The translations under genes were made by a program, and so were the position numbers. The notes beneath the pieces were generated by a model. That model had not been told where the DNA came from. It saw only the letters and a list, made by a program, of their open reading frames with translations, and did not search any database. From the NCBI RefSeq assembly GCF_007860075.1, contig NZ_SJPP01000002.1, positions 868,001 through 932,000 on the forward strand: a stretch of 64,000 bases of DNA. Direction: 5' to 3'. Below, in pieces: positions 19,900 to 33,353 of the stretch. Every line of letters begins with the position of its first letter. Position 1 is the first letter of the stretch. Source of the DNA: Symmachiella macrocystis. Its GTDB lineage: Bacteria; Planctomycetota; Planctomycetia; Planctomycetales; Planctomycetaceae.

Positions 19900-19986
19900 C
19901 GCCGGCATCGTTGATCGTCGATGTTTTACGACGACAGTCGGGAACCAGTCCTACGAAAAAATCACAAAACCATTAAGGAACCAGCC

Positions 19987-20265
19987 ATGCGAATTGCGGA
20001 TGTGATCGGCAAAGTGACCTTGTCAAAATGTCACCCCGAACTAACCGGCGCCACGTGGCTGGTGGCGACGTCGTTGTCGTTGGAAGGGATTCGCGGAGAC
20101 AAAGCGGGCCGTGGCGAACCGTTTGTGGTCTTCGATGAACGCGGCGCCGCTGAAGGCAGCCGCATCGCCATCAGCGAAGGAGCCGAAGCCGCCGCACCGT
20201 TCCACCCCGGCGACAAACCAATCGACGCCTACAACACCGCCATCTTAGACACGATTAATATCTAA
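19987..20265 (+). CDS. BMC-P pentameric vertex protein, copy 3
   Basis: A 92-residue EutN/CcmL-family protein: MRIADVIGKVTLSKCHPELT, then WLVATSLSLEGI, a FVVFDERGAAEGSRIAISEG loop and a C-terminal YNTAILDTINI strand. AAGGAA stands 6 bases before the ATG at 19987; an upstream in-frame ATG at 19921 would add a tail unlike the family. Three distinct BMC-P genes in one locus are typical of the planctomycete-type compartment. Confidence 0.94.
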   Translation: MRIADVIGKVTLSKCHPELTGATWLVATSLSLEGIRGDKAGRGEPFVVFDERGAAEGSRIAISEGAEAAAPFHPGDKPIDAYNTAILDTINI

Positions 20266-20272
20266 CCCGTAT

Positions 20273-20289
20273 GTCATGCTCGGCATGAC
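20273..20289. other. Perfect stem-loop between BMC-P 3 and the aldolase
   Basis: GTCATGC / GCATGAC form a 7-bp perfect stem around TCG, 7 bases after the stop codon of the pentamer gene. No T-run follows. Confidence 0.6.
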
Positions 20290-20334
20290 TTCCGAAAACA
20301 ATCGATAACCAACACCCGATAGGAAATACCCACC

Positions 20335-21243
20335 ATGCAAAACCAATGGAACTCCGGTGTCAACGACCGCAAACTCAAAGAGCAAATCTGCGAGATTGGG
20401 CGACGGATTTATGAAAAGGGCTTTGCCGCCGCTAACGATGGCAACATCTCGATCCGCGTCGGTGAAAATGCCGTGCTCTGCTCGCCAACCATGATCTGCA
20501 AGGGGTTCATGACTCCCGAGGATATCTGTGCGGTCGACCTGGATGGCAACCAAATCGCCGGGACCCGCAAACGGACCAGCGAGATCCTGTTGCATCTGGC
20601 GATTATGAAAGCCCGTCCCGATGTTAAATCGGTCGTGCACTGCCACCCCCCGCACGCGACCGCCTTTGCCGTCGCCCGCGAGCCGATTCCACAATGTATT
20701 CTACCGGAGATCGAAGTCTTTCTGGGCGAAGTCCCGATGGCGCCTTACGAAACACCCGGTGGCCAAGAATTCGCAGATACGGTCTTGCCGTTTTTGGGCA
20801 AGGGAACCAACACAATCATCCTCAACAACCACGGCACGGTCAGCTTCGATGTCGATCTGGAGAAGGCGTACTGGAAGACCGAAATCGTCGATGCCTATTG
20901 CCGAATTTTGTTACTCGCCAAACAACTCGGCCCGGTGAGCTACCTAGACGAGCGCGAAAGCCGCGAACTGTTGGACCTGAAGAAAAAACTTGGCTTCGAC
21001 GATCCTCGTTTCCACGCCGACGATTGCGACCTGTGCGGCAACAGCGCGTTTCGCAAAGGTTATGAAGAGAAACTTCCGGAAACCCGTGCGTTCAATCCCC
21101 CGCCGGCTTTCCCCGGTTACCTCAAAGGCAATTCGGGTGCCACAACAAACGGCGGGGGTCACAACGGTTCAGAAGGCGGCGACATCGAAGCCCTGGTCAA
21201 AGCCATCACCAGCGAAGTCATGGCAGCAATCGACAAGAAATAG
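20335..21243 (+). CDS. Class II aldolase (fuculose/rhamnulose-1-phosphate aldolase type) with C-terminal cargo peptide
   Basis: A 302-residue zinc aldolase of the FucA/AraD family, inferred to cleave a deoxy-ketose 1-phosphate to DHAP and lactaldehyde. Metal and acid residues can be placed: E83 in RTSEILLH, H102 and H104 in VVHCHPPHATAF, and H166 in LNNHGTVSF. The catalytic domain ends near residue 215. It is followed by a cysteine-containing stretch (HADDCDLCGNSAF), a Gly/Asn/Thr linker, and an amphipathic terminal helix (DIEALVKAITSEVMAAIDKK) that looks like a BMC targeting peptide. It is longer than FucA (about 215 residues) because of this tail. This gene defines the compartment as a sugar-phosphate-splitting type. 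Confidence 0.93.
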   Translation: MQNQWNSGVNDRKLKEQICEIGRRIYEKGFAAANDGNISIRVGENAVLCSPTMICKGFMTPEDICAVDLDGNQIAGTRKRTSEILLHLAIMKARPDVKSVVHCHPPHATAFAVAREPIPQCILPEIEVFLGEVPMAPYETPGGQEFADTVLPFLGKGTNTIILNNHGTVSFDVDLEKAYWKTEIVDAYCRILLLAKQLGPVSYLDERESRELLDLKKKLGFDDPRFHADDCDLCGNSAFRKGYEEKLPETRAFNPPPAFPGYLKGNSGATTNGGGHNGSEGGDIEALVKAITSEVMAAIDKK

Positions 21244-21255
21244 ACTCAGCAAGTC

Positions 21256-21280
21256 GTGCGCGGGTCTCCTGACCCCGCAC
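21256..21280. other. Stem-loop between the aldolase and the dehydrogenase
   Basis: GTGCG-C-GGGTC pairs with GACCC-CGCAC around TCCT, with a single bulged C. It starts 13 bases after the aldolase stop. A second small stem (GGCCG/CGGCC) follows at about 21313-21330. Confidence 0.55.
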
Positions 21281-21362
21281 CCAACAAGACCGCAGGTCTC
21301 CCATAAAAACATCCCGGCCGAACAAACCGGCCCTACACGAAATACTTGTGAGTTAAAGCATC

Positions 21363-22295
21363 ATGAAAGTCAGCATTGTCGGTGGCGGCGGTTTGGTAGG
21401 GTCTTGTGCGGCATTCGCGTTACAGTGCGGGGGCATCGTTCGTGAAATTGCTCTGGTCGATGTCAACGCCGACCTGGTCGGTGGACAAGCCTTGGACCTA
21501 TTGCACGGGAGTTGTGTAACGGCCGACCAAAAGATCTATGCCGCCGGTCCCGAAGGCAGCGCCGATGCCGACGTGATCATCATCACCGCCGGATTGCGAC
21601 GCAAGCCGGACGAAAGCCGCCTCGATTTGATCAATCGCAACGTCGCCCTCTTCCGCAACATCCTGGCCGACTTGCGTAAAGTTGGCACAAAACCCGGCGC
21701 GATTGTCTTCGTCGTTTCCAACCCCGTGGACGTGCTCACCTATTTAACAACGCGCGAGTTGTCCTTGCCGCCGGAAAAAGTGATCGGACTGGGCACGCAA
21801 CTCGATACCATCCGTTTGCGCAGCATGTTGGCCGATCGGTTGGACGTTCCCGCGACGCAAGTCTCGACGCTGATCTTCGGGGAACATGGCGACAGCATGG
21901 TGCCGATTTGGTCCGCCGCGCAGGTCGCCGGACTGCCGTTGGACAAATGGCCCGGCTACTCCCCTTCCCTTGTCAGCGACGTCGAGAAACGGACGCGGGG
22001 CAGCGGAGCGGAAGTGATTAAGAAAAAAGGGGGCGCCGGATTCGCCGTCGGCTTGGCAATCACCGAAGTTGTGCACTCCATCGCCTTAGACCAACGCCGC
22101 ATTTTGCCGGTCTCAACGTTGCAGTCCGGAGCCTATGGGTTACGCGACGTTTGTATTTCCGTACCGACCGTCGTCGGCCGGGAGGGCGTGCTGGGGCATA
22201 TCGAATTGGACCTGTGGCCCAAAGAACGGACCGGACTGGCCAACTCGGCCCGTGTACTTCGCGAAACGATCGACAAAGTCCTCGCCGGATCATAA
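21363..22295 (+). CDS. L-lactate/malate dehydrogenase family NAD-dependent oxidoreductase
   Basis: A 310-residue enzyme with a Rossmann start (MKVSIVGGGGLVGSCAAFAL), an acidic D33 for NAD, the mobile loop TAGLRRKPDESRLDLINRN, LDTIRLR and the catalytic GEHGD with H175. It has arginines at R80, R86 and R151; Arg rather than Gln at position 80 (equivalent to LDH residue 102) is the malate-dehydrogenase signature, while the KPDESRLDL remainder is closer to LDH. In the characterised planctomycete BMC locus this gene is considered a lactate dehydrogenase-like enzyme. Without an end extension it may be cytosolic. The substrate is undecided. Confidence 0.9.
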   Translation: MKVSIVGGGGLVGSCAAFALQCGGIVREIALVDVNADLVGGQALDLLHGSCVTADQKIYAAGPEGSADADVIIITAGLRRKPDESRLDLINRNVALFRNILADLRKVGTKPGAIVFVVSNPVDVLTYLTTRELSLPPEKVIGLGTQLDTIRLRSMLADRLDVPATQVSTLIFGEHGDSMVPIWSAAQVAGLPLDKWPGYSPSLVSDVEKRTRGSGAEVIKKKGGAGFAVGLAITEVVHSIALDQRRILPVSTLQSGAYGLRDVCISVPTVVGREGVLGHIELDLWPKERTGLANSARVLRETIDKVLAGS

Positions 22296-23685: not shown

Positions 23686-24771
23686 TCAATCCACAACTTC
23701 TTCTCCCAGATAGCGATACACCAATTCGTGCCAACCTTCGCTGGCTCGGTAATTCAGCAACGACTGATTTAACGGCTTGCGCAATGGACTGCCGGGTTGT
23801 AGGGCAATGGCATAATCTTGGGTATGGAACGAGACGGAAAGGACGTGGATCCGTCCGTAGTACTCGGTATTCGCCAAGTATTTCAATTGCGCTTCATCGT
23901 AGACCAACGCTTCTGAGCGGACTCCGGCGAGCGCTTGCGCCGCCTCGGCGATCGTGGGATAACTGCGAAATGGGATGCGTTTGGCCCGCAAAAATTCTGC
24001 GCTCGTACTCGGTTCGACCGTAATCGTTTTGATGCGCCGCAAATCACCCGGATGTGAAATGCCCACGTCCATATGTCCGATCGTGAGTGCCGATGTAATC
24101 ACGCCGGTCAGGATTGAAAACAGCAAAATACTGGCCAGCATCGCGCCGCAGGCCAGTACCCGACCGGAAACGCTGACGGGAAAAACCCCCTTATGTCCCA
24201 GCAATACGATCGTGGACCACCACATCCCCATCCCGATCCCCTTGCGGCGTTTCCCGCCGAACATCTGTTCGTTGGATTGGCGTTCAAAGAACCAAAACAA
24301 GATGCCGCAGACCAAGACGATCCCGATCATGATGCTGACAATTGTGAGCAAACGTGTCGAAATGATCCGGCGGAGAACTCTCCAACCACCCGAAGAGTGC
24401 TCAGCGTTAACCGCGACTCCTAAACCGGTTGTGAAATAGGGATGGCAGAAATCCACGCGTTTGTGGCGGTCGGCTGTGACGCTGATCGCTGCGACAGCGA
24501 TGTCAACGTCCCCCTTTTCCAACCCCTCAAACATTTCGTCCAAAGGCATTTCGCGGAATTCGTATTCCAGGCCCAATTCGTTGGCCATATGCCGCCACAA
24601 TTCCACGCTGATCCCCTTCCACTGCCCGTCAGCGCCACGAAACGAAAACGGCGGGCTTTCCTTCGTCGCCACGACAAGCGGTTTTGTTTCAGCCGCACCG
24701 CCGTCCGGCGTCTCCGCTGGATCGACCTGCCCCAGTGCGAGTAGTACCAAGAGTAAAGTTGAAGTCGCCAA
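23686..24771 (-). CDS. Ionotropic glutamate receptor-like channel with degenerate pore
   Basis: A 361-residue protein with the prokaryotic GluR layout: signal peptide (1-18), ligand-binding lobe S1 (31-125), TM1 (139-162), pore loop, TM2 (205-230) and lobe S2 to the end. Binding-lobe motifs are PPFSFRGADGQWKGISVELW and FCHPYFTTGLGVAV. The pore loop (residues 184-199) reads WWSTIVLLGHKGVFPV and lacks the TVGYGD potassium filter that its upstream neighbour keeps, so ion selectivity or conduction must differ. The only usable start in the frame is TTG at 24771, with GGGAG 10 bases upstream; the frame closes shortly before. It is the second gene of a pair, 59 bp after the paralog. Confidence 0.85.
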   Translation of the reverse strand: MATSTLLLVLLALGQVDPAETPDGGAAETKPLVVATKESPPFSFRGADGQWKGISVELWRHMANELGLEYEFREMPLDEMFEGLEKGDVDIAVAAISVTADRHKRVDFCHPYFTTGLGVAVNAEHSSGGWRVLRRIISTRLLTIVSIMIGIVLVCGILFWFFERQSNEQMFGGKRRKGIGMGMWWSTIVLLGHKGVFPVSVSGRVLACGAMLASILLFSILTGVITSALTIGHMDVGISHPGDLRRIKTITVEPSTSAEFLRAKRIPFRSYPTIAEAAQALAGVRSEALVYDEAQLKYLANTEYYGRIHVLSVSFHTQDYAIALQPGSPLRKPLNQSLLNYRASEGWHELVYRYLGEEVVD

Positions 24772-24830
24772 TGTATTACGGCTCCCTGTCGTTTCGTAAA
24801 AACTCCCACAACAACATCATCTACGGCATG

Positions 24831-25922
24831 TCAGTCGCCCAGATAACGCCGCAATGTCTCATCCCATTGTGGTGTTGTGATCACCTGCAATATGGCTTGA
24901 TTGAGCGATTCGCGAAACGGACTCTCGGGAGGAATCGCGATCGCATAATCTTGTTTTTCAAACGTCGCTGGCAAGACTTGGATGAGGCCCGGATGTTCGT
25001 TGTGCACCATATATCGCAGAATCGGCGCGTCATAAACCACTGCGCCGAATTGGTTGCGTTCGAGACCGGCAAGGCATTGATCGACCGCCGGAAACGATTT
25101 GAAAGCAATGCCCTGACGTCGCAAATATGCGGCACTGGTCGAATCAGCCACGGTCGCCAAACGGACGTTGTGCAAGTCGCGCGGACCACGAACGTTTGAC
25201 TCGAGTTGTGACAACGTGAGAATTGAGGTCACCGACGCAGTAAAAATCGAGATAATGATGATCGCCGTGTACATCCACAACACGGCAACCGCTCGTCCAC
25301 CCGGAGACTTGGGGACCTTGTCGCCATACCCCACGGTGGTCATGGTAACGGCGGCCCACCAGATGCCGCTCGATAGTCCTCTAAAGACGCTGCCCCCGAA
25401 ATCTGCCCGATTTCGTCGTCGCTCAAACAGATAAACCAGCGTGCCCATCGCCATTAACACGAGAAAGATTGTAAACACGATCTTCAAGAATACCGTGGAA
25501 AAGATTCGCTTCACCACTGCCGACCAATTAGTCGTTTGACGCTGCGCAACGGCAATGCCCAGTCCGGAATTGAAATAAGAATGCGAAAAATCGAGGAGTT
25601 GCTCACGTTCGTGCGTGATCGTAATCGCCGCAACGCCCGCGTCGAGTTCTCCCGATTCCACTCCGGCAAGGATTTCATCCAGCGGCAGATTTTCGAATTC
25701 GTAGCGAAGCCCCATCTCGTTGGCAACACCCCGCCACAATTCAATACTGATCCCGCTCCAGGTGCCATCTTCATTGAGAATCGAAAATGGTGCCGCTTCT
25801 TTTGTGCCGATTCGCAGGACGCGTTTCTCGTCCGGTTGAGCAAATGTGATCGTAGAAGACAGCAACCACATCGACACAAACGCCCAGAGCTGTATACGAA
25901 ATTGGCGTTTGCCGTCGATCAT
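24831..25922 (-). CDS. GluR0-like glutamate-receptor potassium channel
   Basis: A 363-residue protein: signal peptide (1-29), S1 lobe (36-128), TM1 (143-167), pore loop with a canonical potassium filter TTVGYGD at residues 195-201, TM2 (211-236) and S2 lobe to the end. The lobes resemble ABC-type amino-acid binding proteins (AAPFSILNEDGTWSGISIEL; DFSHSYFNSGLGIAV). Such proteins are ligand-gated potassium channels, as in cyanobacterial GluR0. CAGGAG precedes the ATG at 25922. It lies 64 bp downstream of corA, in a run of four ion-transport genes on the same strand. The ligand is not predictable. Confidence 0.92.
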   Translation of the reverse strand: MIDGKRQFRIQLWAFVSMWLLSSTITFAQPDEKRVLRIGTKEAAPFSILNEDGTWSGISIELWRGVANEMGLRYEFENLPLDEILAGVESGELDAGVAAITITHEREQLLDFSHSYFNSGLGIAVAQRQTTNWSAVVKRIFSTVFLKIVFTIFLVLMAMGTLVYLFERRRNRADFGGSVFRGLSSGIWWAAVTMTTVGYGDKVPKSPGGRAVAVLWMYTAIIIISIFTASVTSILTLSQLESNVRGPRDLHNVRLATVADSTSAAYLRRQGIAFKSFPAVDQCLAGLERNQFGAVVYDAPILRYMVHNEHPGLIQVLPATFEKQDYAIAIPPESPFRESLNQAILQVITTPQWDETLRRYLGD

Positions 25923-25986: not shown

Positions 25987-27111
25987 TCACGGATCGTCGT
26001 CCTTTCCCGGAATGTTCTCGTCGTCATCGCGATTCCAAATCCAACCCTTGCGATAGAAGTAGAATAGCATGCCGCCGGCCACGAGGAACATGGTAGTCCA
26101 TATCACGGGATAGGCCCAGGGGACGTGCAATTCGGGCATGTAGTCGAAGTTCATACCGTAAATGCCGGCCATGAATGTCAGCGGAATGAAAATCGCAGCT
26201 GTAATCGTCAACACCTTCATGATTTCATTTTGACGATTACCGACCGACGCGAGATACATGTTCATCAGGCCGGTAACCATCTCGCGGTACATCTCCACCA
26301 CTTCGGCCGACTGCACGCAATGATCATACGTGTCACGGAGGTAAACACGCACGTTGGGATCAATCAGCGGATGCTCGTCGCGGGCCAGTGAATTAGCGAC
26401 TTGTCGCTGCGGCCAAATAGCGCGGCGGAGATTGATCAGACGGTTCTTGACGTGATTCAGATTCTTGAGCAAGCGGGGCGTGGGTTGTTCGATGACCGTG
26501 GTTTCCAAGTCTTCTAAATAGTTACCGATTTGCTCCAAAACCGGATAGTAAGCATCGACAATCGTGTCGAAAATGGCATAGGCGACATAGTCGGGCCCTT
26601 CGGTACGGATCGGCCCCTTGCCACTACGGATGCGTCGACGGACTGGATCAAGAACATCGCCATAGCGTTCTTGGAAGGTTAAGACATAGTTTTTTCCGAG
26701 GATGATGCTGACTTGCTCAATGTCGACATCGGCCTGCCCGATCGAATTCACCATGCGAACGATGATCAAAATCTGATCGTCATACGTTTCTGCTTTGGGG
26801 CGTTGTGGGACATTCACAATGTCTTCGATCGCCAGCGGATGAATCGAAAATCTCTCGGCGATCCGGCGGATCAACTTTTCGTCGCCGAAGCCTTGCACGT
26901 CAACCCAGGTGGTCGTGTTCGGGTCGTGAGCCGCGTGTAGTTGATCGGTATCGGCGACGTCCGCTTCCTTCAACTCCTCGGGTGTAAAATGCATCACGTG
27001 AATTCTCGGCGATGAGGCGTCCGCGGAAATGACCAATGTCCCCGGCCGCGCGCCAATATCCGGATGCCTCTTTTTGAACAACGACTTGCCTCCCAATGCG
27101 TTCAACCACAT
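25987..27111 (-). CDS. corA: CorA-family magnesium/cobalt transporter
   Basis: A 374-residue protein: a large cytoplasmic alpha/beta and helical domain, then two C-terminal membrane helices. The diagnostic pore signature is AGIYGMNFDYMPEL, with GMN at the end of TM1; TM2 (PVIWTTMFLVAGGMLFYFYR) is followed by a basic and then acidic tail. CorA pentamers import Mg2+ and sometimes Co2+ or Ni2+. It lies 106 bp downstream of a CNNM/CorC-type gene and 64 bp upstream of the potassium channel gene, which suggests a cation-handling cluster. Confidence 0.96.
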   Translation of the reverse strand: MWLNALGGKSLFKKRHPDIGARPGTLVISADASSPRIHVMHFTPEELKEADVADTDQLHAAHDPNTTTWVDVQGFGDEKLIRRIAERFSIHPLAIEDIVNVPQRPKAETYDDQILIIVRMVNSIGQADVDIEQVSIILGKNYVLTFQERYGDVLDPVRRRIRSGKGPIRTEGPDYVAYAIFDTIVDAYYPVLEQIGNYLEDLETTVIEQPTPRLLKNLNHVKNRLINLRRAIWPQRQVANSLARDEHPLIDPNVRVYLRDTYDHCVQSAEVVEMYREMVTGLMNMYLASVGNRQNEIMKVLTITAAIFIPLTFMAGIYGMNFDYMPELHVPWAYPVIWTTMFLVAGGMLFYFYRKGWIWNRDDDENIPGKDDDP

Positions 27112-27217: not shown

Positions 27218-28561
27218 CTATTGCTCAGGAATCTGCGACGAATCTTGCGGCGGTTCAGAACTCTCAACCGGAGGACGCGTCACACGGACCAGCGCTGCCC
27301 AGTCGTCGCGAACTTCCACCACGTCGACGATAAATTCACCCAGTTCAATTCGGTCGCCCACGGAAAGCAATCGTTGAGCGCTATTCACCAGGACCCCGGA
27401 AAACGTATCAGCGTCGGTCACGTCCAGGGCGATTTTGAAATGGCGGCTGATTTCATCAACCGGTGTCGTCCCCAATACCAGCCACTCATTCGCCCCTTGT
27501 GAGACGATATTCGGTTCCGCATTATCGAATTCATCGTCCACTTCGCCGATGATCTGTTCCAACACGTTCTCCAACGTGACAATGCCGATCACCGTGCCGT
27601 ATTCGTCGACGACAAACGCCAACAACTGGTGCGTTGCCTGAAAATGCCGGAGCAACTTGCTGATCGGCATGTTCTCGGGCACCTTGCGTGGAGGACGCAT
27701 AATGGTGTTCCAGTCAAACGCGTCGTTGACTTCCAGCCCGACCAAATCCTTAACATGAATCACGCCCAACACTTCATCGAGCGAGTTATTGCAAATGGGG
27801 TAGCGCGTATGCTTCGTGCGACGGGCCAACTCGATGCACTGCCGAGGAGGATCGTTGATGCCAAAGAACTCCACCTCGACCCGCGGCACCATGATCCGTC
27901 GGCAGACCATATCGTCGAATTCAAACACCGCGTGCAACAGCCGGTGTTCCGCCCGGCTGAGATGTCCGCTCACATGCGATTGCCGCAACAGTGCGCGAAT
28001 TTCATCCTCACTGTGCGGAGCATCGTGCTCCGAGACCCCTTCTAGCCCGACTTGTTTAAGCAATAACGCCGTCGAGACGTTCAGTGCCACCATCATTGGG
28101 TAAGTCAGCAAATAGAACCACTTCAACGGCAAGGCACACCACAACAACACTTGGTCGGCGCGACGAATGGCGAAGATCTTCGGTGCCTGTTCGCCAATGA
28201 CCAAGTGCAACGAAGTGATCACACTAAACGCAATCACAAACGCGGTCGTGTGCAGCACCGCTTCTGAGTGAATCCCCAATGTTTCCAGCAGAGGACGCAA
28301 TAAGTGTGCGAAGGCCGGTTCGCCCACCCAGCCCAAAGCGAGCGAGGCCATGGTGATGCCCAACTGGCAGGCCGACAGTGCCCCTTCCATGCGTTCCACC
28401 AGCCATTGCCCCGTTCGCGCAAAGGGGCGCCCGGCTCGCACTAACTCGTCCACCTGACCGCCACGAACTTTCACCAACGCAAACTCCGCAGCCACAAAAA
28501 ATCCGTTAAGCAGCACTAACGCAATCGCGATGAGAATCTCTATGACATCCTGCATCCACAT
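27218..28561 (-). CDS. CNNM/HlyC-CorC family transporter (DUF21, CBS pair, CorC domain)
   Basis: A 447-residue protein with an N-terminal DUF21 membrane domain of about four hydrophobic segments (starting IEILIAIALVLLNGFFVAAEFALV), a CBS-domain pair (RIMVPRVEVEFFGI ... VLGVIHVKDLVGLE; AFVVDEYGTVIGIVTLENVL) and a C-terminal CorC/HlyC domain. Family members export or regulate Mg2+ and Co2+. The position upstream of corA fits a role in magnesium balance. Its old name, hemolysin C-like, does not imply a toxin. Confidence 0.93.
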   Translation of the reverse strand: MWMQDVIEILIAIALVLLNGFFVAAEFALVKVRGGQVDELVRAGRPFARTGQWLVERMEGALSACQLGITMASLALGWVGEPAFAHLLRPLLETLGIHSEAVLHTTAFVIAFSVITSLHLVIGEQAPKIFAIRRADQVLLWCALPLKWFYLLTYPMMVALNVSTALLLKQVGLEGVSEHDAPHSEDEIRALLRQSHVSGHLSRAEHRLLHAVFEFDDMVCRRIMVPRVEVEFFGINDPPRQCIELARRTKHTRYPICNNSLDEVLGVIHVKDLVGLEVNDAFDWNTIMRPPRKVPENMPISKLLRHFQATHQLLAFVVDEYGTVIGIVTLENVLEQIIGEVDDEFDNAEPNIVSQGANEWLVLGTTPVDEISRHFKIALDVTDADTFSGVLVNSAQRLLSVGDRIELGEFIVDVVEVRDDWAALVRVTRPPVESSEPPQDSSQIPEQ

Positions 28562-30866: not shown

Positions 30867-33353
30867 CTATTCTAAATCGAACGATTCAAACTCTCCCTCT
30901 TTGGTGAGGCGAGTTCCCCACACTCGATCTGATGCCTGGTGTCGTGAGGGACTGAAGGAAAGCAACGGGCCGATCCCGATGTCGAGTTTGTTGATGCGGT
31001 GCAAAGCATCGATCAATGTTTCCGTGGTCAAATCCGGTCCCGCCAACTGCAGACCTTCTGTGAAGATTTTTGCGGCAATAAATCCTTCCAGCGATACGAA
31101 CCCCGGCTCATATTCCGGATTATATTTTTGCAACAGCCGGCGATATTCCAACACCCCGGTGGCATTGGACATAAACGGCGGAACAACCTGAGTCACGATG
31201 ACTCCTTCACCGTCCGCCGGTCCGTTTTCACGGAATTCCTCGGCAATAGCGCGGCTGCCGACAAACGAGACCGCGCCGAACACCATGTCCGGTTTCGCAG
31301 CCTTCACCCGTTTGACGAACCGGGCTGCCACCTTGTAGGTCGAGACCATAACGATGGCGCGTATCTCGTTCTTGTCATCAACAATCGTAGAAACCGCTTC
31401 GTCTATGTTAAACCGATTGCGGTCATAGCCAACACGCAGCAGTTGATCGACATCGATACCATACCCCTTCACCGCACGGGCAACGCCCGCAAACCCATCG
31501 TCACCAAAGGCATCATTCTGCGCGAACACAGCAATCTGTTCCGGGGGGATGCGGAGCGTCTCGACAAAATACTTGACCAGCGCCGCTGTCTCGTCTTGGT
31601 AACTGGCCCGATAGTTAAAGATATACCGGTCCGGCGGATCTTCGCGGAGCAAACTGGCGCCAGTGAGCGGCGAGAAAAACAGATGCCCATTCTGGCTGGC
31701 AAAAACCGACGTCACATTGGCCGTGGGCGTGCCAACGTTTCCAATCACCGCAAAGACCTTACGGTCCTCGAAAAGCTGCTTCATGTTTTCTAGCGATTTA
31801 TCGGGATCATACCGGTCATCCAGCACCGTGAGTTCGATCCGGCGGCCGTGTACCCCTCCCGCATCGTTGACGCTATCGAAGTAGCTCTTCATCCCGATGA
31901 CCATATTCCGGCCCAGTTCTTCGTTGGGCCCATTGAAAGCGGTCGTCGTTCCCAAATGAATCGTATCGGCCGTAACGCCGCGGAAAGTCGGGACGTTCTG
32001 ATTGGCATTTTCAGCGACAACGTTGCCGTTCTCCGTATTGAGGCCGTCGTCCGATCGGTCGTTGAACAAACCGCTCAAGGCGAAAAGCACAGCCAACGCA
32101 GCGACCACCATTGCCCCACCGGCGGCGATCTTCCAAGGAAAGGGTTTCGCCGCTGGTTCCTCTGGGGCTGCAACGGGCGGGGGTGCTTCTTCGGAAAGCA
32201 GAGCAGCTAAATCCTTACGCAACTCTGCCGCCGATTGATAGCGATCTTCCGGTCGTTTGGCCATCGCTCGCTGAATGATCCGATCACAACCGGCCGGAAC
32301 TTCCGGATGTTTTTCGACCACGCTTGGCACGGGTTGATTGCAATGTGCGAACATCACCTGCAATTGCGTGCCGCTCTCTGTAAACGGCGGATGCCCGGTG
32401 AGTAGGTCAAAATAGGTGGCGCCCAATGAATAAATGTCAGACAGTGGGTTGATCTCACCGGCGCTGCACTGTTCGGGACTCATAAAATCCGGCGTGCCCA
32501 GAATCGTCCCGTGCTGCGTTAAGGCCTTCTCGGAATCCTGGTCAGATTTCGCCAAACCAAAGTCCAACAGCTTCACCGTCGATTCGACGGTGAGCATTAT
32601 ATTCTGCGGCTTGATGTCGCGATGAATCAGGCCTTGGGAGTGCGCAGCAGTCAAGGCGTCGCAACAATCCATGGCGATTCGCGTTGCCAGTTTCCAGTCC
32701 AAGAATCCGCGCGTCGACTTTTTGAGCACCTCGCTGAGATCATCGCCCGGGACCTTTTCCATGACAACGTAATAAGCACCTTCGACCTCCAAAACGTCAT
32801 AAATACCGACAATATTCGGATGGTGCATCGCTCCGGCTGTCTGCGCTTCTTGCAGCAGCCGCGACAAGGCATTTTCATTGGTGGAGTGCTTCGAACTCAA
32901 CAGCTTGATGGCGACTTCACGACGAATCACCGAGTCGTAGGCACCGAAGACAATCCCCATCCCGCCAATGCCGAGGACCGAACGGATTTCGTACTTCCCC
33001 AACATTTCGCCGACAGCAATATCGACTTCGGTACTCCCCAAGTCGGGTTCCCGTTTCGACCCCTCCGTGACAATCGTATCGTCAATCGCACTGAAGGCGG
33101 CGGAGATGGTTGGTTGATCTGCTGGAAATCGCTGGATGTAGTCGGTGGGCGAGGGATTTTCGCCCAAGCTTCTGCGCCGCCGCAAGTCGGCATTGATCAG
33201 TTCCGCGAGCACTTCCCGGCGAACATCCTCAGGCGCACGTTTCGCATAGTCTTCCAGATTGGGCCGCAAGCCGGCTTCCCAATCGTCTTGAAACTCGCGA
33301 AGTATCGCCGTCGCAGCCACATCTCGTTCTCGAGCTGAATCCGATTCTGTCAC
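30867..33353 (-). CDS. Transmembrane Ser/Thr protein kinase fused to LivJ-type ligand-binding domain
   Basis: An 828-residue one-gene receptor kinase. Residues 1-110 are a soluble leader (REFQDDWEAGLRPNLEDY) common before planctomycete kinases. The kinase domain (120-390) is complete: GIGGMGIVFGAYD, VAIK lysine (K150), HRDIKPQN (244-251), DFG (264-266), GTPDFMSPEQ. One membrane helix (409-430) follows. Residues ~455-825 match the periplasmic branched-chain amino-acid/amide-binding (Leu/Ile/Val-binding type) fold: IHLGTTTAFNGPNEELGRNM, DDRYDPDKSLENMKQLFED, AVIGNVGTPTANVTSVF, FFSPLTGASLL. The layout predicts that an external small molecule controls an intracellular kinase. It is monocistronic. 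Confidence 0.93.
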   Translation of the reverse strand: MTESDSARERDVAATAILREFQDDWEAGLRPNLEDYAKRAPEDVRREVLAELINADLRRRRSLGENPSPTDYIQRFPADQPTISAAFSAIDDTIVTEGSKREPDLGSTEVDIAVGEMLGKYEIRSVLGIGGMGIVFGAYDSVIRREVAIKLLSSKHSTNENALSRLLQEAQTAGAMHHPNIVGIYDVLEVEGAYYVVMEKVPGDDLSEVLKKSTRGFLDWKLATRIAMDCCDALTAAHSQGLIHRDIKPQNIMLTVESTVKLLDFGLAKSDQDSEKALTQHGTILGTPDFMSPEQCSAGEINPLSDIYSLGATYFDLLTGHPPFTESGTQLQVMFAHCNQPVPSVVEKHPEVPAGCDRIIQRAMAKRPEDRYQSAAELRKDLAALLSEEAPPPVAAPEEPAAKPFPWKIAAGGAMVVAALAVLFALSGLFNDRSDDGLNTENGNVVAENANQNVPTFRGVTADTIHLGTTTAFNGPNEELGRNMVIGMKSYFDSVNDAGGVHGRRIELTVLDDRYDPDKSLENMKQLFEDRKVFAVIGNVGTPTANVTSVFASQNGHLFFSPLTGASLLREDPPDRYIFNYRASYQDETAALVKYFVETLRIPPEQIAVFAQNDAFGDDGFAGVARAVKGYGIDVDQLLRVGYDRNRFNIDEAVSTIVDDKNEIRAIVMVSTYKVAARFVKRVKAAKPDMVFGAVSFVGSRAIAEEFRENGPADGEGVIVTQVVPPFMSNATGVLEYRRLLQKYNPEYEPGFVSLEGFIAAKIFTEGLQLAGPDLTTETLIDALHRINKLDIGIGPLLSFSPSRHQASDRVWGTRLTKEGEFESFDLE

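Follow-up and report, generated by a model that had tools for sequence, protein, structure and literature searches.

Paired GluR0-type channel genes in Planctomycetota, one with a potassium filter and one with a conserved lysine-containing filter

Introduction

Animal glutamate receptors depend centrally on the mixing of subunits and on editing of the filter, and their prokaryotic ancestors are usually treated as simple homotetramers. Mixed channel assembly is rarely considered for bacteria; the conserved gene pair described here suggests one. Among the closest described systems are the Group 1 prokaryotic glutamate receptors, which include GluR0 of Synechocystis, and the Group 2 receptors, whose pore loops were not recognised as belonging to any known type (Ger et al. 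2010, PMC2950845). The 64,000-nucleotide stretch of Symmachiella macrocystis DNA analysed here (the window) encodes two GluR0-like proteins side by side, one with the potassium filter (K-type) and one with a rewritten filter (D-type). The features discussed are as follows.

24831..25922, minus strand: K-type glutamate-receptor-like channel gene, 363 aa, ATG start, assigned from Pfam and an AlphaFold model; its parts in order are signal peptide, S1, M1, pore helix, TTVGYGD filter, M2 and S2
25320..25340, minus strand: codons of the K+ filter TTVGYGD (K-type residues 195-201)
23686..24771, minus strand: D-type channel paralogue, 361 aa, TTG start, with the K-type architecture and a non-K+ filter
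24187..24204, minus strand: codons of the rewritten filter LLGHKG (D-type residues 190-195)
24190-24192, minus strand: codon of the invariant D-type Lys194
25987..27111, minus strand: CorA-family Mg2+ channel gene, directly upstream of the K-type gene
27218..28561, minus strand: CNNM/CorC transporter gene (CNNM, CBS and CorC_HlyC domains), upstream of CorA

Results

The two channel genes are co-directional, with the positions and intact reading frames given in the preliminary description, and their products are 41% identical over 332 aligned residues. The sole gap in this alignment is a deletion of two residues in the D-type pore loop, a shortening that the preliminary description did not mention. 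Pfam and AlphaFold agree with its account of a signal peptide and of binding lobes split by membrane helices and a pore loop: SBP_bac_3 is split around the pore in both proteins (E 3e-26 and 3e-28), the K-type protein scores above the Pfam cut-offs for Lig_chan and Ion_trans_2, and the D-type protein falls narrowly under the Lig_chan cut-off (30.0 vs 30.8 bits) and fails Ion_trans_2 (13.1 bits, cut-off 22.5). Neither protein received a name above cut-off from NCBIfam. The AlphaFold2 models of the two proteins, built from alignments made in this analysis, have high confidence (mean pLDDT 89.4 and 90.6), and each runs in the order signal helix, S1, M1, pore helix, filter loop, M2, S2, with the pore helix and M2 at residues 179-194 and 207-238 of the K-type and 175-191 and 201-232 of the D-type. 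The top Foldseek matches of the D-type are AMPA receptor ligand-binding and membrane domains, and the nearest solved sequence for both proteins is 2pyy, the ligand-binding domain of a bacterial glutamate receptor homologue. The S1 arginine and S2 aspartate that contact the α-carboxylate and α-amino groups of the amino acid backbone (roles as in PMC2950845) are kept as R106/D298 in the K-type and R102/D292 in the D-type, and the M2 gate motif is intact in the D-type. It is in the filter that the two part company. TTVGYGD at residues 195-201 of the K-type is matched in the D-type by LLGHKG, exactly as first described; the D-type filter retains one glycine and has lost every other K+ filter residue, and the tryptophan behind the filter, present in 46 of 46 K-type proteins, is lost too. 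The D-type protein sequence contains no cytoplasmic signalling domain or tail.

Could the altered filter be an error of sequencing, or the mark of a gene in decay? The search covered 59 relatives, 170 genomes from the order to which the window belongs, 392 sampled from the phylum as a whole and 396 from the order of Roseiconus, with one additional scan of the GTDB contig collection. They yielded 22 distinct D-type proteins from two planctomycete orders and one outlying family: carriers are two species of the window genus, three further genera in that family, Blastopirellula marina, Stieleria, Rhodopirellula, Roseiconus, Botrimarina, several more genomes and MAGs and, from a distant family within the phylum, a single genome (G398). 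Conservation of the degenerate pore across homologues, raised in the preliminary description as a check, was found in every case, the filter reading L[LF]G[HN]K[GS] with Gly192 and Lys194 invariant in 22/22 proteins and all of them sharing the two-residue deletion; because it is kept in 22 proteins, the filter is not a product of chance. With near-copies removed, the six filter columns have a mean entropy of 0.23 bits compared with 1.06 for the whole protein, the lowest among the membrane segments. The D-type proteins are monophyletic with support of 100/100 in the full tree, and removing the filter columns does not break up the clade (97/79). Comparisons of closely related species give Nei-Gojobori dN/dS values of 0.04-0.09 for the D-type and 0.06-0.22 for the K-type, with the D-type the lower in every pair compared. 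The simplest reading of these sequences is that the filter changed once, in the ancestor of the D-type genes, and would have been under strong constraint ever since. A sequencing or frameshift artefact, which the presence of a deletion might bring to mind, is refuted by the recurrence of the identical deletion and motif in 22 genes from isolates and MAGs alike, and is practically impossible. Almost as implausible is decay, with the D-type as a degenerating duplicate and its filter the outcome of drift: a broken D-type remnant that lacks the pore does lie beside a second K-type copy in one relative (G928), but the low dN/dS of the D-type and the invariance of key filter residues in both orders and the outlying family refute it for the window gene.

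Unusual filters of other kinds were also seen among glutamate-receptor-like channels. Proteins of the Pirellulales order (L118-L127) have a third filter type, GGC[ED][ND]K, and in two of them (L118 and L121) the open frame of the channel, at 862-866 aa, includes an Rce1-like CAAX protease domain. Single homologues have TQRGIGN (L049, Pseudorhodoplanes MAG), TFVGDKH (L055, Campylobacteraceae MAG) and TQASTGH (L140, Rhizobium tumorigenes plasmid).

Co-occurrence of the pair, the other check raised at the outset, is nearly complete: a K-type gene is present in 21/22 D-bearing genomes and adjacent to the D-type gene in 18. Three genomes have the K-type on another contig (Roseiconus, G016, G398), and the MAG SJ586, the sole D-type carrier of the 22 without a partner, has no detected K-type. 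Of the 566 genomes covered by the two order-wide searches, 15 carry a D-type, each of them together with a K-type, and 9 more carry a K-type without a D-type (Fisher p 1e-23, relatedness not corrected). Neither unconstrained drift of the filter nor loss of one partner from most relatives was seen, since D-bearing genomes almost always retain the K-type. Sixteen of the 22 D-type genes lie directly upstream of the K-type gene (D->K) and 2 directly downstream (K->D), the latter being the order in both species of the window genus, with a gap of ~60 nt and no overlap. The stop codon of the D-type and the start codon of the K-type overlap as ATGA (4 nt) in five Rhodopirellula/Stieleria-type genomes; the gap is 1-5 nt in most of the remaining D->K pairs and longer in G122, Botrimarina and G575. 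A GGAGA within the final D-type codons (YLGE) sits at the ribosome-binding-site position for the K-type, and the D->K pair appears to be translationally coupled.

The K-type is kept without a D-type in G083, G629, Bythopirellula, G670 and G599. The K-type of G629 is close to that of Blastopirellula marina (G505 in the tree; short end branches), and no trace of a D-type was found beside it. Because the K-type survives without the D-type in several genomes, dependence between the two is asymmetric, as would be the case for an accessory subunit. The K-type gene of G016, a fragmented MAG, has an in-frame TGA. At the second G928 locus (L129, ~1250-1880) the D-type remnant, which has frameshifts and no pore region, stands upstream of K, between a PP2C phosphatase gene and an intact K-CorA pair. 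The K-type of the window genus falls on another branch than the usual downstream K-type in two trees, and we do not claim a replacement of the partner there, as the AU test does not reject a single K-type clade (p 0.42, 0.69).

CorA adjoins the K-type in 10/18 of the adjacent D/K pairs, in the order CNNM-CorA-K-D in the window genus and D-K-CorA in Stieleria, Rhodopirellula, TBK1r, Botrimarina, UBA30 and G842. It also adjoins the K-type without an intact D-type in Bythopirellula, G670, G599, G866, the second G928 locus and Roseiconus, and D-bearing genomes have just 1-3 CorA genes each. The CNNM/CorC neighbour recurs in G001, and beside the K-CorA pair of G866; other recurrent neighbours are MscK-like mechanosensitive channels, a PP2C phosphatase with a cyclic-nucleotide domain, and MgtE. 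The genomic link of the K-type channel to Mg2+ and osmotic ion transport is therefore a conserved one. Elsewhere in the window, positions 30867-33353 (minus strand), near the channel genes, encode an 828-aa protein that joins a serine/threonine kinase to a Peripla_BP_6 ligand-binding domain, a receptor-kinase arrangement, and positions 19921-22295 (plus strand) hold a row of EutN/CcmL shell protein, class II aldolase and lactate/malate dehydrogenase-type genes that resembles a planctomycete microcompartment locus.

Discussion

What might explain the retention, next to a canonical K+ channel subunit, of a paralogue that has given up the K+ filter and conserves another in its place? We favour the view, with a probability of about 0.58, that the D-type serves specifically to modulate the K-type, joining it in one channel as a subunit whose lysine filter changes the K+ conductance. 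Both genes would encode GluR0-type amino-acid-gated subunits, the K-type supplying the canonical K+ selectivity filter. The D-type would join it in a tetramer, most simply K2D2 or K3D1, and its conserved Gly-[His/Asn]-Lys turn would form part of the filter ring; on binding an amino acid, the periplasmic lobes of both subunits would close, the shared pore would open, and the lysine and shortened loop of the D-type would lower or alter K+ conductance. We infer co-assembly, gating by α-amino acids and the effect on conductance from sequence and genome context. A conserved rewritten filter, together with retention of a K-type gene that is mostly adjacent and apparently coupled, favours such a heteromer over independent channels, and altered selectivity may reasonably be expected from a lysine that is invariant at a filter position. 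The preliminary description, which proposed a heteromer of altered selectivity or else a signalling receptor, thereby finds partial support. On the other side, genes that share an operon do not always encode parts of one complex, and the reversed order and ~60 nt gap of the window genus, the separate contigs of three genomes and the K-less SJ586 argue against co-assembly. A stronger version, in which the receptor is obligately heteromeric, the lysine filter subunit gives it weak or reversed charge selectivity, and it acts as the amino-acid-gated electrical partner of CorA, is improbable.

Might the D-type instead work without its neighbour? It could form a homotetrameric amino-acid-gated channel of its own, apart from the K channel, that is non-selective or, through four filter lysines, prefers anions. 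The complete architecture, the confident fold with pore helix and loop, and the intact gate motif and ligand residues are what such a channel would need, a Kovacikia homologue has a loop of equal length with GQD replacing GHK, and in three genomes the two types are on separate contigs. However, the D-type almost never occurs without the K-type, apparent translational coupling suggests a fixed stoichiometry, and a ring of four lysines would be costly for cation flow, so that we consider a D-type homotetramer unlikely. Somewhat less likely again is a D-type that does not conduct at all, an amino-acid receptor that retains the channel fold in order to signal or to inhibit the K-type dominantly. 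Loss of the K+ filter residues bar one glycine, and of the tryptophan that every K-type retains, would be in keeping with such a receptor, but the protein has no cytoplasmic domain or tail through which to signal, and residue-level conservation of the filter would be needless in a purely structural plug.

If the modulatory heteromer is correct, it would place heteromeric subunit specialisation in bacteria, provide a small two-gene system for understanding how a basic filter residue alters selectivity, and link amino acid sensing with Mg2+ transport. Because CorA adjoins the K-type so often, one may speculate that the channel is a source of K+ counter-current, or sets the membrane potential, for electrogenic Mg2+ uptake; a literature search combining CorA, membrane potential and K+ efflux returned nothing on such coupling by title or abstract. 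No report of paired subunits like these was found in the literature searched. Open-access searches on planctomycetes with ionotropic glutamate receptors and on heterotetrameric potassium channels of prokaryotes yielded no papers, a negative result that counts only weakly as evidence of absence.

How do the two proteins compare with known receptors and channels? Like GluR0 and the other Group 1 receptors, both have the S1-M1-P-M2-S2 arrangement with the α-carboxylate arginine and α-amino aspartate, but the Group 1 K+ filter, TxVGYG(D), is found only in the K-type; the D-type lacks it, has a loop two residues shorter and, unlike in Group 1, is encoded as one of a pair of paralogues. In topology and in its non-K+ pore loop the D-type resembles Group 2, from which it differs in that its members make up one planctomycete clade, close to the K-types, and carry a lysine where Kovacikia has an aspartate. 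The Kovacikia homologue, from a cyanobacterial plasmid, has the D-type loop length with the charge reversed (GQD at the GHK position), and this equal length suggests that the loop length of the D-type fits another kind of pore and does not by itself imply a dead one. In the tree the D-type does not group with the Kovacikia or Paracoccus homologues, and a Photobacterium protein, whose branch is very long, falls next to it; long branches limit this tree, which lends no support to a shared origin of the D-type with other non-K+ filters.

The proposed role of the D-type is reminiscent of the silent Kv subunits (Kv5, 6, 8, 9), paralogues expected to act only in heterotetramers with Kv2, whose properties they modify, and whose dependence is likewise asymmetric. 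Heterotetramers of Kv2.1 and KvS subunits are the subject of published work. KvS subunits generally keep the K+ filter, unlike the D-type; their gating is also unrelated. Closer in fold are AMPA GluA2 edited to arginine at the Q/R site, a subunit that also modifies its partners, and the plant GLRs; like the D-type, these have a basic residue in a subunit pore loop, although these are eukaryotic proteins with an additional M4 and N-terminal domain and their basic residue does not strictly align with the D-type lysine. A review of plant GLRs considers an arginine in the filter and the possible passage of anions (PMC11479355), which strengthens the basic-filter analogy. Judged by sequence, the K/D pair is a GluR0-type prokaryotic glutamate receptor with a new paired-filter arrangement.
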